From Candidatus Levyibacteriota bacterium (GTDB lineage Bacteria; Patescibacteria; Microgenomatia; Levybacterales; UBA12049): 31,243 nucleotides of DNA. The notes under the pieces were generated by a model. That model worked only from the letters and a program-made list of their open reading frames with translations. It made no database searches and was not told where the DNA came from. The stretch is from contig PPGL01000021.1 of NCBI GenBank assembly GCA_003173915.1, forward strand, positions 1 through 31,243, written 5' to 3'. The position numbers were made by a program, and so were the translations under genes. Position 1 is the stretch's first letter, and every line of letters begins with the position of its first letter. Below, piece by piece: positions 3,378 to 27,038 of this stretch.

Positions 3378-3405
3378 TTGACAGCGGCATTTTTTGTGCT
3401 ATAAT
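3378..3405 (+). promoter_or_regulatory. Strong promoter of the pro operon (TTGACA-N16-TATAAT)
   Basis: Perfect consensus boxes TTGACA (3378-3383) and TATAAT (3400-3405) are separated by 16 bases. Transcription should start near 3412. Unlike most promoters here, the start codon is about 265 bases downstream, leaving a long RNA leader. Confidence 0.85.
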
Positions 3406-3411
3406 GAATGT

Positions 3412-3663
3412 AACAAGTTAATAAAAGCGTTGATTGGGAATTCCCGCCCATGAGCTGACTACGACGAGTAGGTCCGGAGGCGAAACCGTAAAAGTCCGCA
3501 ACGTGTGTCGAAATTTCGGAGCACGTCATGAATGAGGTAACTCATTATTCTGACGTACTCGCTAAGGCGAGTTTTTTGTTGGAAGAGTTACAATGCAAGG
3601 TGGTACAGTTTAAAAACCCTTGTAAGATCAGTAGTTTGTTACTGGTTTTGCAAGGGTTTTTTT
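3412..3663 (+). promoter_or_regulatory. T-box-like leader controlling proBAC
   Basis: This 250-base leader is the only gene-free stretch of about 300 bases and is full of structure. The diagnostic part is 3596-3622: CAAGG (3596-3600) pairs with CCTTG (3618-3622), with a 7-base bulge TGGTACA (3601-3607) and an inner GTT/AAC stem. This is the T-box antiterminator architecture (consensus bulge TGGNACC), in which TGGN pairs with the uncharged tRNA NCCA end; TGGT would pair with ACCA. The same CCCTTG is also used by a downstream terminator, so the two folds exclude each other. Upstream hairpins include CGTCA/TGACG enclosing AATGAG-GTAA-CTCATT (3524-3555) and ACTCGC/GCGAGT (3557-3572). I could not identify the specifier codon; proline is expected from the downstream genes. 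Confidence 0.65.
3615..3663 (+). terminator. Attenuator terminator of the pro leader
   Basis: AACCCTTG (3615-3622) pairs with CAAGGGTT (3651-3658). An inner stem CAGTA/TACTG is enclosed and a run of T follows to 3663. The 5' arm overlaps the 3' arm of the T-box-like antiterminator, so binding of uncharged tRNA would prevent this hairpin. Confidence 0.85.
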
Positions 3664-3678
3664 GTGAAAGGAAAAGTT

Positions 3679-20402: not shown

Positions 20403-21050
20403 ATGAAGACAGTTGTTGGTATTTTTGCACATCCTGATGACGAAGCATTTGGCCCAAGTGGAACAATTGCGACTCTTGCAAAAGAAAACGATGTATATTT
20501 AATTTGTGTTACGAATGGAGATGCCGCAACCGGAACTCCTGACCCAAAGCTTGCAGAAATTCGAAAAAAAGAATTACTTAATTCATCAAAAATCTTAGGC
20601 GTTAAAGAAGTTTTTTTTCTTAATTTTGGTGATGGTACATTAAATAATAATCTTTATCATACAGTTGCAGAAAAGATTAAAGAAATTCTTGACAGACTTA
20701 CACCGCATCTACTCATTACAATCGAACCTCGTGGAGTTTCAGGACATTTGGATCATATTGCTGTATCAATGATTACGTCTTTTATTTTCCAAAAAATTTC
20801 ATACGCAAAAGAAATATGGTATAGCTGTCTTAGTCGCGAACAAACAGACATGCGGGGAGACTATTTTATTTATTTTCCTCCTGGCTATACTCAAGATGAG
20901 ATAGACAAGATTGTGTATGTTTCATCTGTATGGGATCAAAAAATAGAAGCAATTAAACAACACAAATCGCAAAAAAAAGATGTTGAATCTGTATTATCAA
21001 GAATAGAAAAAATTCCAAAAGAAGAGTATTTTTTGGTGAAAAGAAAGTAA
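20403..21050 (+). CDS. PIG-L (LmbE-type) zinc deacetylase
   Basis: A 215-residue protein with the family metal site AHPDDEAFG at the N-terminus (residues 9-17) and GHLDHIAV further on (about 115-122). These supply the His/Asp/His zinc ligands and catalytic Asp. The family removes N-acetyl groups from sugars such as GlcNAc-derived lipids, bacillithiol and mycothiol precursors, or chitooligomers; the substrate here is open. A Shine-Dalgarno AGGAG lies inside the end of the upstream regulator gene, 12 bases before the ATG. Its stop abuts the stop of the convergent gene. Confidence 0.9.
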   Translation: MKTVVGIFAHPDDEAFGPSGTIATLAKENDVYLICVTNGDAATGTPDPKLAEIRKKELLNSSKILGVKEVFFLNFGDGTLNNNLYHTVAEKIKEILDRLTPHLLITIEPRGVSGHLDHIAVSMITSFIFQKISYAKEIWYSCLSREQTDMRGDYFIYFPPGYTQDEIDKIVYVSSVWDQKIEAIKQHKSQKKDVESVLSRIEKIPKEEYFLVKRK

Positions 21051-22975: not shown

Positions 22976-24670
22976 TTATTTCTTTATTTGCTCAATCTCG
23001 TTAACTAATTCTTTTGTCTTTTCTTGTGGAAGTATTTTATAGGATTTTTCTGCAGCGGCGAGTGCTTCTTGTGTTTTTCCTAAAAGCAAAGAAGATTTTC
23101 CTAAATCAAATAATATTTTTGGATCTTCAGGATATTTTAGCAAAGCAGTCTTTGAAAACGAATATGCTTGCCTTGGAGAATAATAAGCAACGAGAAAATT
23201 AGCATAATTTTCATACACCGCATAATTTCCAAAACGGATAAGCGCTTGTTGTAAATAATACTTAGTCAAGGGAATATTTTTTTCATGAAGTGCGATAACT
23301 GCTGCATTATTTAAATTTGCAAAAAAAGGAAATTGTCTGATAGAGGATAACACGTATGGTTTTGCCTTCTCGTAATCGCCATCGTATAAAAGTTCTGTTG
23401 CAAGCGCATTGTCTAAAAGAAAACTTTGCTTTGTTACTTTTATATCTTGTGAATAGAGTGTTACTCCATCTGCCCAGTCAAAATTTCTTAAAAAGGTTCG
23501 AAGACTGAATAGAAGAATAATAACATTAATAGCAATATATCCAATTTTTTTAAATTGAAAATTTGAAAATATGACACATGTGATTATTGTTCCAATTGCT
23601 CCTAGAAGGCCAATACAAGAAAAATAAAACCAGCGTTCGGCAATGGTTGTATCTAGGGGAATAATTTGTAGATGTGGAATAAGTCCCAAAAGAAACCATG
23701 CAAAGAAAAAAAAGAATTGTTTTGCATATTTTCTATGATACTCCACAATCCATTTGCTAATAAAAAATGCAGTAAGGAAAAAAATAATTACAAAGCAAAA
23801 AGAGAGAAAAAATTCGACAGAATTTGCTGATGTAATAATCCAATAATAGGAAGAAGATAGCTGTAAGGGAAAGAAAAAAGTACGCAGGTATAAAAAAATA
23901 ATTACTGGGAGCGTTAAAAGTTTTTGACTAACTGTTGCTGTTGCTATTGGCGCGATAGCCTGTTGTTGTGTTATGCCAATATGAGCAACGAAGTATCTAA
24001 AAAATATGTATAATCCAAAAGCAAAAAAGGATGCTAAAGAAATAAATTTATTGTTTTTTTTAGGAAATAAGATAAGAAATAACAATATTGTTCCTATAAA
24101 AACAACTCCTGTCTCTTTGGTAAAAAGTGATAATAAAATAAAAAAAGCAAAAGCTATTGCTTCTTTGGGAGAATATTGTTTTGCTTTATTTTTTACAATA
24201 AAAAGTGTTCCAAGCAAGCCAAAAAAAACAAAAAGCACGTCTTGCAAATTTGCAACATACACAACTGCCTCGTTATTAATTGGGTGAACTAAAAATAAAA
24301 GACTTAAAAAAAATGCTGGAACAATTGGGAAAAATACTTCAAATACAATAAATACGAGAATCGTATTTATGATATGAATTCCAACTTGTACAATGTGAAA
24401 AGGGAAAGGATCGGCACCGAAGAAAGAGTAAATAAGATCATATGCTGTAAGCATAAGTGGTCTGTAATATAATCCCGTCAGTTTGGATAGCCCTCCATTA
24501 TAGTAGGTACTTCCAAGGAAAAAATTTCCTATGGAAAAAAGAGAATGTACTTGTAAATTGCCAAGAATTTGAGAGCGATCATCTCCTAAAAAGGCATTGG
24601 TAAGAGAATTTATATAGAGCACCAGCCCAACACAAATTAAAATTAAAACTCCAGTTCGTTTTCTAAACAT
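22976..24670 (-). CDS. TMTC-like GT-C membrane protein with C-terminal TPR repeats
   Basis: A 564-residue protein with about ten to twelve membrane segments. The first extracytoplasmic loop has FLGDDRSQILGN (about 28-39), an acidic pair in the position of GT-C catalytic Asp residues. FLVHPINNEAVVYVANLQD (about 130-150) is characteristic of TMTC/DUF1736-type proteins. The last 140 residues are soluble tetratricopeptide-like repeats (ending DPKILFDLGKSSLLLGKTQEALAAAEKSY in two overlapping pieces). Eukaryotic TMTC proteins are O-mannosyltransferases; bacterial members are mostly uncharacterised. Glycosyl transfer from a polyprenyl donor is the likeliest role. It converges on the TrmB-like gene with a 3-base gap. 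Confidence 0.8.
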   Translation of the reverse strand: MFRKRTGVLILICVGLVLYINSLTNAFLGDDRSQILGNLQVHSLFSIGNFFLGSTYYNGGLSKLTGLYYRPLMLTAYDLIYSFFGADPFPFHIVQVGIHIINTILVFIVFEVFFPIVPAFFLSLLFLVHPINNEAVVYVANLQDVLFVFFGLLGTLFIVKNKAKQYSPKEAIAFAFFILLSLFTKETGVVFIGTILLFLILFPKKNNKFISLASFFAFGLYIFFRYFVAHIGITQQQAIAPIATATVSQKLLTLPVIIFLYLRTFFFPLQLSSSYYWIITSANSVEFFLSFCFVIIFFLTAFFISKWIVEYHRKYAKQFFFFFAWFLLGLIPHLQIIPLDTTIAERWFYFSCIGLLGAIGTIITCVIFSNFQFKKIGYIAINVIILLFSLRTFLRNFDWADGVTLYSQDIKVTKQSFLLDNALATELLYDGDYEKAKPYVLSSIRQFPFFANLNNAAVIALHEKNIPLTKYYLQQALIRFGNYAVYENYANFLVAYYSPRQAYSFSKTALLKYPEDPKILFDLGKSSLLLGKTQEALAAAEKSYKILPQEKTKELVNEIEQIKK

Positions 24671-24762
24671 ATAAACAATTCAAAAAACACATGTTATTTA
24701 ACAGTTTATTCTATCAATAATAGCAGGACTGTTTTCTTAAATACAAGGAATGCAAAAAATGC

Positions 24763-24791
24763 TTGACTATTTATACTATATTTAGTAAAGT
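24763..24791 (+). promoter_or_regulatory. Promoter of the cysteine operon (TTGACT-N17-TAAAGT)
   Basis: TTGACT (24763-24768), 17 bases, then TAAAGT (24786-24791). TATATA at 24791-24796 is an alternative -10. An inverted repeat TATACT/AGTATA (24772-24777 and 24789-24794) lies over the spacer and -10, a possible operator. Transcription would begin a few bases before the leader ATG at 24803. Confidence 0.55.
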
Positions 24792-24802
24792 ATATACGGA
24801 GT

Positions 24803-24847
24803 ATGAAATATATAGTATCAGTAGTTTGTTGTTGCAATCTTTCCTAA
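24803..24847 (+). CDS. Cysteine leader peptide (MKYIVSVVCCCNLS)
   Basis: A 14-codon frame: ATG at 24803, three consecutive Cys codons TGT-TGT-TGC at 24827-24835, stop TAA at 24845-24847. It lies between the promoter and an intrinsic terminator ahead of two genes of cysteine synthesis. Cysteine is normally rare, so three in a row in such a short peptide at this place is the hallmark of a ribosome-mediated attenuator. GGAG at 24798-24801 is too close to the ATG to be a working Shine-Dalgarno; initiation is probably leaderless or nearly so. Confidence 0.82.
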   Translation: MKYIVSVVCCCNLS

Positions 24848-24898
24848 GAGGGAGGTTTTGCATGCAATTTTTGTAACCTCCCTAAGGGAGGTTTTTTT
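24839..24898 (+). promoter_or_regulatory. Cysteine attenuator: mutually exclusive RNA hairpins
   Basis: Four pairing segments are visible: CTTTCC (24839-24844), GGGAGGTT (24850-24857), AACCTCCC (24875-24882) and GGGAGGTT (24886-24893). Segments 1:2 pair with a TAAGA loop (6 pairs, two wobble). 2:3 form a perfect 8-bp antiterminator. 3:4 form a perfect 8-bp terminator. A ribosome stalled on the Cys codons would cover segment 1 and leave segment 2 free to take segment 3. With enough Cys-tRNA, 3:4 forms and transcription stops. Confidence 0.82.
24875..24898 (+). terminator. Intrinsic terminator of the cysteine attenuator
   Basis: AACCTCCC (24875-24882), loop TAA, GGGAGGTT (24886-24893), then T up to 24898. 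The main gene begins 11 bases later at 24910. Confidence 0.88.
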
Positions 24899-24909
24899 GT
24901 GATTAAAAT

Positions 24910-25875
24910 ATGAAATACGCAAAAAACATAATAGACATTATTGGAAATACACCTTTAGTAAAGTTGAGTGCTGTTACGAAAGGTTTAAAGTCCACTATTT
25001 TAGCAAAATTAGAATATCTTAATCCTGGTGGGAGTATGAAGGATAGAATTGGTATTGAAATGATTAAAGATGCTGAAAAAAAAGGCTTGCTGGAAAAAGG
25101 TGGACTTATTGTTGAACCAACAAGTGGAAATACTGGAGTTGGATTAGCAATCGCGGCAGCAATAAGAGGTTATAGACTGCTTTTTACCATGTCTGAAAAA
25201 ATGAGTAAAGAAAAAGAAATGGTGTTGAAAGCATATGGAGCGGAAGTGGTTAGAGCACCAGCCAATGCAGAGCCAGATGACCCACGACATTATATCAACG
25301 TTGCAAAGAGACTTGCCAAAGAAAGGAATGGATATTTTCCCAATCAATACTTTAATAAAGCAAATACACTAGCTCATTACAAAACAACTGGACCAGAAAT
25401 TTGGAGAGACACTGAAGGGAAAGTTACCCATTTTGTAGCACCTGTTGGAACAGGTGGCACAATTACCGGTTCTGCAAAATATCTTAAAGAACAAAATCCA
25501 AACATTAAAGTTATTGGAGTTGATACAGATGGCTCTTTACTTCACCATTACTTTTATCATACTAAGGGGAATGCACGATCATATAAAGTAGAGGGTCCTG
25601 GAGAAGATTTTATGCCAGGGGCACTAGATTTTACATATATTGATAAAATGATTGTTGTTGGGGATAAAGATGCATTTTTTACAGGAAGAGAATTAGTAAG
25701 AAAAGAAGGTATTTTTGCAGGTGGGTCAAGTGGCCTAGCAGTATTTGCAGCACTACAACTAGCTAAAAATCTCACAAGGAAGGATGTAGTAGTTGTTATT
25801 CTTCCTGATTCAGGAAGAAGTTATGTAAGTAAGATGTATAACGAAGAGTGGATGAAGGAAAATAATTTTTTATGA
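24910..25875 (+). CDS. Cystathionine beta-synthase / cysteine synthase (PLP fold II)
   Basis: A 321-residue PLP enzyme of the OASS/CBS family. It has GNTPLVKL, the PLP lysine K44 in NPGGSMKDR, the SGNTG substrate loop (EPTSGNTGVGLA) and the phosphate-binding GTGGTITG. The C-terminal part (EGPGEDFMPGALD, IDKMIVVGDKDAFF, GGSSGLAV) resembles cystathionine beta-synthase more than CysK. It lacks the CBS regulatory domains. With the next gene it would convert homocysteine and serine to cystathionine and then to cysteine (reverse transsulfuration). Direct use of O-acetylserine and sulfide is the alternative; no cysE is in the window. Expression is controlled by the cysteine attenuator. It overlaps the next gene by ATGA. 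Confidence 0.88.
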   Translation: MKYAKNIIDIIGNTPLVKLSAVTKGLKSTILAKLEYLNPGGSMKDRIGIEMIKDAEKKGLLEKGGLIVEPTSGNTGVGLAIAAAIRGYRLLFTMSEKMSKEKEMVLKAYGAEVVRAPANAEPDDPRHYINVAKRLAKERNGYFPNQYFNKANTLAHYKTTGPEIWRDTEGKVTHFVAPVGTGGTITGSAKYLKEQNPNIKVIGVDTDGSLLHHYFYHTKGNARSYKVEGPGEDFMPGALDFTYIDKMIVVGDKDAFFTGRELVRKEGIFAGGSSGLAVFAALQLAKNLTRKDVVVVILPDSGRSYVSKMYNEEWMKENNFL

Positions 25876-27038
25876 AAAACAATGTAAAATTAGCAACAAA
25901 AACCATACATATAGGAAATGAACCCAATCTTGAGAAAGGTGGTAGTGGGGATGTTGTTGTGCCAATTCATTTATCAACAACATTTGCGCGTCAAAAAGTT
26001 AACGCTCCAACCGGAGGATACGAATATTCTCGTAGTGGTAATCCAACTCGATTTGCATTAGAAAAAAATCTTGCAGCTCTTGAAAACGGAACAGCTGCGT
26101 TTGCATATTCTTCAGGACTTGCGGCAATAACAAATGCTCTATTGTTACTCAAAGTAGGCGATCATGTTCTTTCTATAGATGATGTGTACGGTGGAACAAG
26201 AAGACTTTTTACCCAAGTTTTTGAGCAGTTTGGATTACTGTTTACATTTGCAAATTTTAGTACAGGAAAAGAAGCAGAAAAATTTATTCTCCCACAAACA
26301 AAAATGATTTGGATAGAATCTCCAACAAACCCTTTGTTAAAAATTATTGATATTAGTTCTGTTGCAAAACTGGCAAAAGAGAAAAAAATCAAAACAGTTG
26401 TTGATAACACATTTGCAACTCCTATTTTTCAACAACCTCTTTCACTAGGAGCAGATATTGTTCTCCATTCTATGACTAAATATATAGGAGGACATAGTGA
26501 TAGTGTTGGTGGAGCTGTTATTGTTAAGAACAGTTTACTTGCTGAACGGTTGAGATTTTTACAAAATGCTGTTGGTGCAATTTTATCTCCATTTGATAGT
26601 TATTCAATGGTTCGTGGTATAAAAACTCTTGCTATCCGGATGAAACAACATGAGGAAAACGCAAAAAAAATTGTTGAATTTCTTGCTCAGCAAAAGAAGA
26701 TCAAGAGAATTTATTATCCTGGTCTTTTATCACATCCTGGATACAAAATTGCAAAGAAACAAGCAACAGGCTTTGGTGCAATGGTTTCTTTTGAACTGGA
26801 CAAGACACTTAGTGAATCTGTTAGGTTTATGGAGTCTCTCAAACTTATTTCAATTGCAGAAAGTCTTGGTGCTGTTGAATCACTTATCGAGCATCCCGCA
26901 TCGATGACACACGCATCAGTACCAAAAGAAGAAAGGGAAAAAATTGGTTTGTCAGATGGACTTATTAGACTCTCAGTTGGAATAGAAGATGTAGACGACA
27001 TTATTGCTGATTTAGAACAATCATTACGTAAGATTTAG
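25872..27038 (+). CDS. Cystathionine gamma-lyase / gamma-synthase family enzyme
   Basis: A 388-residue fold-I PLP enzyme. It has YEYSRSGNPTR (about 50-60), AYSSGLAAITNAL, DDVYGGTRRLF, WIESPTNP, VVDNTFATP and the PLP lysine K203 in SMTKYIGGHSD. The C-terminal SLGAVESLIEHPASMTHA and GLIRLSVGIED segments are typical. Sequence alone does not cleanly separate gamma-lyase, gamma-synthase and beta-lyase. The Cys-codon leader and the CBS-like partner favour a cysteine-forming gamma-lyase. It shares ATGA with the upstream stop, so translation is coupled. No clear terminator follows. Confidence 0.9.
   Translation: MKNNVKLATKTIHIGNEPNLEKGGSGDVVVPIHLSTTFARQKVNAPTGGYEYSRSGNPTRFALEKNLAALENGTAAFAYSSGLAAITNALLLLKVGDHVLSIDDVYGGTRRLFTQVFEQFGLLFTFANFSTGKEAEKFILPQTKMIWIESPTNPLLKIIDISSVAKLAKEKKIKTVVDNTFATPIFQQPLSLGADIVLHSMTKYIGGHSDSVGGAVIVKNSLLAERLRFLQNAVGAILSPFDSYSMVRGIKTLAIRMKQHEENAKKIVEFLAQQKKIKRIYYPGLLSHPGYKIAKKQATGFGAMVSFELDKTLSESVRFMESLKLISIAESLGAVESLIEHPASMTHASVPKEEREKIGLSDGLIRLSVGIEDVDDIIADLEQSLRKI

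Follow-up and report, generated by a model that had tools for sequence, protein, structure and literature searches.

The locus under study lies in a window of 31,243 nucleotides from a Candidatus Levyibacteriota bacterium, the window being the whole stretch of DNA that was analysed. It comprises a promoter-like sequence, a short leader ORF with three consecutive Cys codons, an intrinsic terminator, and two genes of the cystathionine beta-synthase (CBS)/cysteine synthase and cystathionine gamma-lyase/gamma-synthase (CGL) families, which overlap by 4 nt (Table 1). As both products score below the equivalog cut-offs of their best NCBIfam models, their exact activities are presumed from family membership. 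On the simplest reading, the operon would lead from homocysteine to cysteine by reverse transsulfuration, and the CBS and CGL families suggest cysteine as its product. The upstream neighbour is divergent, and the terminator is therefore not its 3' end.

Table 1. Features of the leader locus and of the genes adjoining it
Feature	Position	Strand	Basis or remark
Divergent upstream neighbour	22976-24670	-	Gene orientation
Sigma70-like promoter TTGACT-17-TAAAGT	24763..24791	+	9/12 consensus bases; ends 11 nt 5' of leader ATG
Leader peptide ORF MKYIVSVVCCCNLS	24803..24847	+	Translation; 14 sense codons, stop TAA at 24845-24847
Regulatory codons TGT TGT TGC (Cys-Cys-Cys)	24827..24835	+	Leader translation; computed terminator probability 0.00-0.02 with ribosome A site here
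Segment 1 CTTTCC	24839..24844	+	Overlaps end of leader ORF; pairs with segment 2 in full-length fold
Segment 2 GGGAGGTT	24850..24857	+	Pairs with segment 3 once segment 1 is omitted
Segment 3 AACCTCCC	24875..24882	+	Arm common to antiterminator 2:3 and terminator 3:4
Segment 4 GGGAGGTT (24886-24893) and T-run (24892-24898), intrinsic terminator	24886..24898	+	8-bp stem with a 3-nt loop, from terminator scan
CBS/cysteine synthase family gene, 321 aa	24910..25875	+	Best NCBIfam TIGR01137, 446 bits; cut-off of 510 not reached
CGL family gene	25872..27038	+	Best NCBIfam NF005810, 497 bits; cut-off of 594 not reached

The leader element is compact and spans 96 nt, ATG and T-run included; 11 bases separate the T-run from the ATG of the CBS-family gene (24910). 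Segments 2 and 4 are identical, both reading GGGAGGTT. A first-pass annotation had described this region as a ribosome-mediated cysteine attenuator; the coordinates that it gave for the leader, the Cys codons, the four segments and the T-run, as well as the 11-base gap, were all re-checked and are correct.

The 2:3 duplex of the window was matched by 0 of 2000 mononucleotide shuffles (P = 0.0005); the 1:2 duplex by itself was borderline (P = 0.056). The fold of the full leader had a z-score of -2.46, and 5 of 200 shuffles were equally stable. On both strands of the window, and for any sequence, this was the sole site combining an exact terminator stem of at least 6 bp with a repeated segment 2. 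Promoter-like matches were no rarer in shuffles, nine being found in the region and 11.8 expected. No family reached its gathering score in an Rfam scan of the window. The element matched Phe_leader (RF01859) with the lowest E-value of any Rfam family (25.3 bits, E = 0.023, below the gathering score of 55 bits), and the T-box covariance model (RF00230) had no match at 24700-24930 at E up to 5.

Elsewhere in the window, a PIG-L family gene is found at 20403-21050, and the scan for segment 2 and terminator shows no such attenuator near it. The region 3400-3665, before proB (start near 3664), looks by eye like a divergent T-box: it carries AAGGTGGTAC, CCCTTGTAAG and a GCAAGGGTTTTTTT terminator, like the T-box of a relative described below (L082). 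No T-box was found there among Rfam matches up to E = 1.

Cysteine leaders at CBS/CysK loci in relatives

A contig scan with the CBS of the window was used to collect the best 80 loci of at least 575 confirmed relatives. One of these 80 came from a Candidatus Daviesbacteria metagenome-assembled genome (MAG; L001, 73% identity), the 79 others being from other bacteria. Taking this MAG as the centre, samples of its class and phylum were then searched for CBS/CysK genes at E = 1e-60 or better. Such genes were held by 22 of 373 genomes of the class and by 7 of 379 of the phylum, the MAG itself being among these 7. The order of genome G202 contributed 4 holders among 83 genomes, one of them new, and the orders of G147 and G632 gave no further CBS loci. 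The total was 29 distinct Patescibacteria genomes with CBS/CysK. These CBS relatives point to a Microgenomates-type member of Patescibacteria as the probable host of the window.

A mechanical test was applied to at most 300 nt upstream of each gene, asking for an ATG-started ORF of 8 to 40 residues with at least two Cys in five codons, together with an intrinsic terminator. It was positive for 14 of the 29 Patescibacteria genomes, compared to none of the 79 other bacteria taken from the best 80 of at least 575 (Fisher P = 6e-10). Cysteine leaders were recognized by eye in two more genomes, bringing the count to 16 of 29. One genome (L110:1214-1470) has two tandem leader/terminator units with wholly different stem sequences before a single cysK-type gene; its stems are AT-richer and were missed by the mechanical test. 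In the other (L105), the leader stands before the gene that precedes cysK. The arrangement at L105:901-2403 is a cysteine leader, two short frames, the first with a weak ParB_N match (below cut-off), and then cysK. In other organisms, serine kinases of the ParB-like type are known to supply cysteine synthesis.

Other loci have other arrangements. T-boxes were found at the CBS/CysK gene in L082 (E = 5e-4) and L108 (E = 3e-11), both below the curated score and both with UGC near the apparent specifier position as read by eye. A CGL-CBS operon (L087) has a leader with a single Cys near segment 1, also read by eye. The three closest CBS genes differ: one is preceded by a leader (L086, 73%), one by a T-box (L082, 75%), and that of L001/L081 (73%) comes after another gene, without leader. 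L001/L081 and L082 rule out that the cysteine leader is universal among close relatives. No leader, and by the rule used no intrinsic terminator within 300 nt, was found at ten loci (L081/L001, L089, L090, L091, L099, L101, L106, L107, L109 and L111, with only 89 nt upstream in L109). At six of them (L081, L091, L099, L101, L106 and L107), an open frame of more than 300 codons ends at most 15 nt from the CBS start, and control would therefore lie elsewhere.

The first-pass annotation had proposed a comparison with related genomes. In distant relatives, the stem sequence changes (GGGAGG, GGGAGC, GGGGAG, GGTTAG), yet the Cys codons, their frame and the alternative stems persist. The Cys run itself varies from CCC to CC, CxC and CxxxC, and its flanking residues differ among leaders. 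The case named as refuting, a terminator kept with the Cys codons lost, was not found among the ten leaderless, T-box-free CBS/CysK loci; the nearest to it is the single-Cys leader of L087.

Pairing conservation and the computed switch

Nineteen cysteine leaders were compared, namely the window leader, 17 leaders at 16 CBS/CysK loci, and one found before another gene (L121). Owing to their variable spacers, the leaders had misplaced stems in MAFFT alignments, and pairing was therefore judged from duplex energies, with shuffled sequences and swapped partners as controls. The 2:3 duplex beat shuffles at P < 0.05 in 18 of the 19, the exception being L121 (P = 0.099); in this set, L097/L098 and L093/L096 are similar, non-independent pairs, and the segment limits were drawn from the same sequences. 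Own partners gave a mean of -15.8 kcal/mol for 2:3, compared to -11.9 kcal/mol for swapped ones (P = 5e-5). For 1:2, the means were -11.3 and -9.6 kcal/mol (P = 1.5e-4), and shuffles were beaten at P < 0.05 in 7 of 19 leaders (Fisher P = 8e-8 over the 19). The 2:3 pairing thus survives changes of stem sequence, that is, it shows covariation.

The effect of a ribosome on the fold was computed under an assumed footprint, with the ribosome edge 12 to 15 nt beyond the first nucleotide of the codon in the A site. Without ribosome, the full-length leader of the window forms the 1:2 pairing and its terminator has a probability of 0.95. This probability is 0.97-0.98 with the ribosome at codons 2-5, 0.81 at codon 6, 0.29 at codon 7 and 0.00 at codon 8; it stays at 0.00-0.02 at the Cys codons 9-11, rises to 0.28 at codon 12, and is 0.99-1.00 from codon 13 to the stop. 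The off zone is centred on the Cys run and slightly wider, given the values at codons 7, 8 and 12. When all RNA before 24845 is covered, as by a ribosome near the Cys codons, the remainder folds into the 2:3 antiterminator (-15.9 kcal/mol) and no terminator is formed.

The same computation was carried out on all 19 cysteine leaders. With the ribosome at the stop codon, every one had a terminator probability above 0.5, and 17 were in the terminator state when free (exceptions L100 and L105). A stall at a main Cys codon brought the terminator below 0.5 in 13 of 19, in one of them to 0.47 only (L103). The remaining six (L092, L093, L095, L096, L104 and the second unit of L110, L110b) showed no switch, no main-Cys-codon stall bringing the value below 0.5. 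In six leaders (L086, L094, L097, L100, L105 and L202), stalls at codons before the Cys run also averaged below 0.5. By computation, then, a stall at the regulatory codons would disable the terminator and arrival at the stop codon would restore it. The folding and duplex tests likewise predict that antiterminator and terminator exclude each other through segment 3.

The same architecture before other genes

We searched for the pattern formed by segment 2, segment 3, segment 4 and T-run (GGGAG type). In the class draw, 155 of 373 genomes carried it, and in the phylum draw 26 of 379; the reversed pattern gave one match in each. Being far rarer in the phylum draw, the GGGAG stem is mainly a feature of that class, and in the 21 phylum loci that were read the leaders were less clear. 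For the class, 30 of the loci listed were read, together with 60 regions chosen among the matches listed; many further class leaders precede genes that were unsearched or had no family match.

Several of these leaders are rich in codons that fit the pathway of the gene downstream. For branched-chain synthesis, MNSKSLLLLNLSLLLNKG... stands before LeuA (L166; Leu), MNKQNRSIIEIIASQ... before citramalate synthase CimA (L194; Ile), ...SLILLAVLISQV before a branched-chain aminotransferase (L158, and likewise L184), and ...LVSLGVIIITL... before acetolactate synthase (L157). For aromatic residues, Phe/Tyr leaders precede the DAHP synthase AroF in three loci (MNLTSTKFFYFYFTS in L112, MNIFNQSYFWFNYFN... 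in L159, MNMKQVGFDFFWFYF... in L169), a leader with a GTG start, ...EAYFWFYF..., precedes a DAHP synthase (L185), and MVTKSNTFRTWFFFSS precedes prephenate dehydratase PheA (L138). A fitting leader with terminator, MRNIFFTCACSLS, is also found about 260 nt upstream of PheS (L188).

Leaders of the type ...NNNFSPS... precede a SerB-SerA-like fusion in L178 and L196. A reading as Ser leaders is doubtful, because in L179 a leader of almost the same sequence precedes another gene, which weakly matches Vut_1, a vitamin uptake transporter. Together with L146, these leaders have the form MN[PS]RV[DN]..NN[FY]SPS and are rich in Asp/Asn/His/Tyr codons; Ser, or something tied to those codons, could be what is sensed. 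Downstream genes that do not fit, or are unclear, encode PfkB (L198), peptidase M1 (L199), an Asp/Glu racemase (L200) and epimerase-like proteins (L114, L147).

Other leaders were noted in passing. Thr runs occur in three leaders (MNKNIIITRTATTPY, MMILADSGMTTTTLF and MSWNLSNITKKTTKTAFQRREFS in L114, L147 and L168), whose downstream genes are epimerase-like or belong to the amino-acid kinase family. The same attenuator, with leaders rich in Leu/Ile/Val, precedes mostly small genes in L133, L134, L136, L137, L139, L140, L153 and L161, and L140 has three attenuator units within 1.5 kb. The leader of L121 (31-150), encoding the cysteine peptide MINRNIIINCCCASF up to its stop, is found before a PIG-L/BshB1-like deacetylase gene (162-941; 47 bits, below cut-off).

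The match between leader codons and downstream genes was assessed by permutation, on leaders whose downstream gene has a clear amino-acid product; a later ATG was taken for L158 and L184. The set omits L110b, L121, L105, L202, L185 (GTG start), L114, L147, L198, L200, L168, L199 and the leaders before unnamed genes. The observed match was reached in 0 of 100000 permutations of 27 leaders (P = 1e-5), a test that carries selection bias because these leaders were picked after viewing. The 12 non-Cys leaders gave P = 5e-5. Without the Ser pair, the values were P = 1e-5 for 25 leaders and P = 0.004 for 10 non-Cys leaders.

Promoter spacing was analysed on leaders with a single possible ATG, with random ties and shuffled controls. 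A sigma70-like promoter was found for 62 of 78 such pattern-matched leaders, compared to 10 expected from shuffles. Among these 62, the -10 box ended 5 to 8 nt before the ATG in 28 (0.9 expected, maximum 4 in 200 shuffles), while in 55 the distance was 6 to 14 nt. This puts the predicted start of transcription at the leader ATG or immediately upstream, which would make these leaders leaderless or nearly so. For the cysteine leaders other than that of the window, 12 of 18 had a promoter with at least 9 of 12 consensus bases ending 7 to 14 nt before the ATG, the spacing being 7-8 nt in L086, L088, L094, L102, L202 and the first unit of L110 (L110a); promoters were weaker or distant in L095 and L103, and none was found for L092, L104, L121 and L110b. 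The window leader is probably nearly leaderless, with a 5' UTR of a few nt. That label, taken from the first-pass annotation, is fair, since the sigma70-like promoter ends 11 nt before the leader ATG.

Interpretation and relation to known systems

We consider it highly probable that the window element acts as a ribosome-mediated transcription attenuator, with charged Cys-tRNA as its signal and a cysteine-forming operon as its target. The cysteine leaders and alternative stems of relatives support this reading, which the first-pass annotation had put forward; from anatomy, computed switch, conservation and covariation we infer translation of the leader, stalling, termination and the response in cells. 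Transcription would begin a few bases upstream of the leader ATG, with a ribosome translating the leader behind the RNA polymerase. With ample Cys-tRNA, the ribosome would reach the stop codon and cover segment 2, so that 3:4 forms and transcription ends. With scarce Cys-tRNA, it would stall on the three Cys codons and cover segment 1; 2:3 would then form, 3:4 would be blocked, and the CBS and CGL genes would be transcribed. Without ribosome, 1:2 and 3:4 would form and transcription would end. The product family of the operon fits a cysteine sensor, which counts for this reading. So do the leaders of this build that carry other residues before matching pathways, and the T-boxes, which sense tRNA charging, in front of the CBS/CysK gene of L082 and L108. 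Against it count the differing arrangements at the three closest CBS genes, an off zone wider than the Cys run, the six leaders without a switch at their main Cys codons, the two outside the terminator state when free, the 1:2 duplex that beats shuffles in only 7 of 19 leaders, the 2:3 value of L121, and the enzyme scores below the equivalog cut-offs.

Translational attenuation of the mycobacterial poly-Cys type is an improbable alternative for the window. Stalling would then mainly serve to free the CBS ribosome-binding site, the hairpin being less a terminator than a sequestor. Leaderless poly-Cys ORFs are indeed reported from mycobacteria in the excerpts cited below, and in L088, L094 and L202 a Shine-Dalgarno-like segment 4 (GGAGG) lies by eye 7-8 nt from the CBS ATG, so that it may double there as the Shine-Dalgarno of CBS. 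In the window, however, seven T follow the hairpin, and GGAGG is 18 nt from the ATG, beyond the usual spacing.

Sensing of a metal, thiol or redox state by the RNA or by the emerging Cys-rich peptide, in place of Cys-tRNA charging, is very improbable. Cys clusters bind metals, and the gene after the L121 leader, PIG-L/BshB1-like, is possibly one for a low-molecular-weight thiol. However, the residues flanking the Cys run differ and the run itself is not kept as CCC, and leaders of the same architecture with Leu, Ile or Phe/Tyr precede the matching pathways, which fits codon sensing. A plain constitutive terminator, with the Cys ORF and the second GGGAGG copy due to chance, is likewise very improbable: short ORFs and short repeats are common and CCTCCC/GGGAGG terminators recur in the class, but the divergent upstream gene, the joint occurrence of Cys-run ORF and terminator (14 of 29 compared to 0 of the 79 from the best 80 of at least 575), the retention of segment 2 together with segment 3, and the 155 genomes with the real pattern for one reversed match in 373 all stand against it, and it is already contradicted by the conservation seen in these sequences.

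With the cysteine attenuator as the preferred reading of the window, we also lean, on balance, towards a wider proposal. Microgenomates-type Patescibacteria may control amino-acid synthesis largely through one compact leaderless attenuator design, with Shine-Dalgarno-like GGGAGG used for segment 2 and again for segment 4, and with the codons setting which residue is sensed; the cysteine version would belong to a set that extends to leucine, isoleucine, branched-chain and aromatic genes and possibly further ones, and would exchange with T-boxes at the same gene. T-box/leader exchanges are described in excerpts of PMC2965389 (2010), according to which classical leader-peptide systems were known only from Proteobacteria and Actinobacteria, a Firmicutes case being added. 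Among the matches listed from open-licence literature, none described attenuators of this kind in Patescibacteria or the Candidate Phyla Radiation, a weak argument given that restriction. Attenuators of this kind, for cysteine and with an intrinsic terminator, would mean that uncultivated bacteria with reduced genomes can adjust their amino-acid synthesis with no regulatory protein dedicated to it, and their sequences would give a readout of the amino acids that they make and sense. The leaderless starts would also offer simple objects for testing how leaderless translation is coupled to RNA polymerase.

Attenuators of the E. coli type (trp, his, pheST, thr, leu, ilv) have a leader with cognate codons, exclusive 1:2, 2:3 and 3:4 pairings, an intrinsic terminator, and an operon that makes the sensed amino acid. 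The window element shares the run of cognate codons, the exclusive 2:3 and 3:4 pairings and the intrinsic terminator; its 1:2 pairing is borderline, and its operon presumably makes the sensed amino acid. Unlike them, it would sense cysteine, occupies 96 nt, has a probably (nearly) leaderless start, and uses GGGAGGTT for both segments 2 and 4. A T-box (RF00230) also senses tRNA charging and precedes the orthologous gene in L082 and L108, but it binds the tRNA directly and has no leader peptide, and the window element has no T-box match. Excerpts of PMC1262725 predict Cys leader peptides in Mycobacterium, Propionibacterium acnes (cys) and Bifidobacterium longum (cbs), which the window resembles in its Cys run upstream of a cys/cbs-type gene. 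Conserved terminator hairpins were, in the same excerpts, not found in Mycobacterium, Rho being weakly suggested; in contrast, the window has an intrinsic terminator, with its 8-bp stem and T-run, between leader and operon. The mycobacterial poly-Cys leaderless ORFs (Canestrari et al. 2020) are cysteine-responsive attenuators according to excerpts of PMC9031893, PMC9094748 and PMC13236596. Like them, the window has a short ORF with consecutive Cys codons, probably with a 5' UTR of a few nt; they are described as controlling downstream translation, whereas the window, in another phylum, has an intrinsic terminator and a predicted antiterminator. In our judgement, the kind of mechanism is already known, and what is new is the cysteine version with an intrinsic terminator, its compact, probably near-leaderless form, and the host group.
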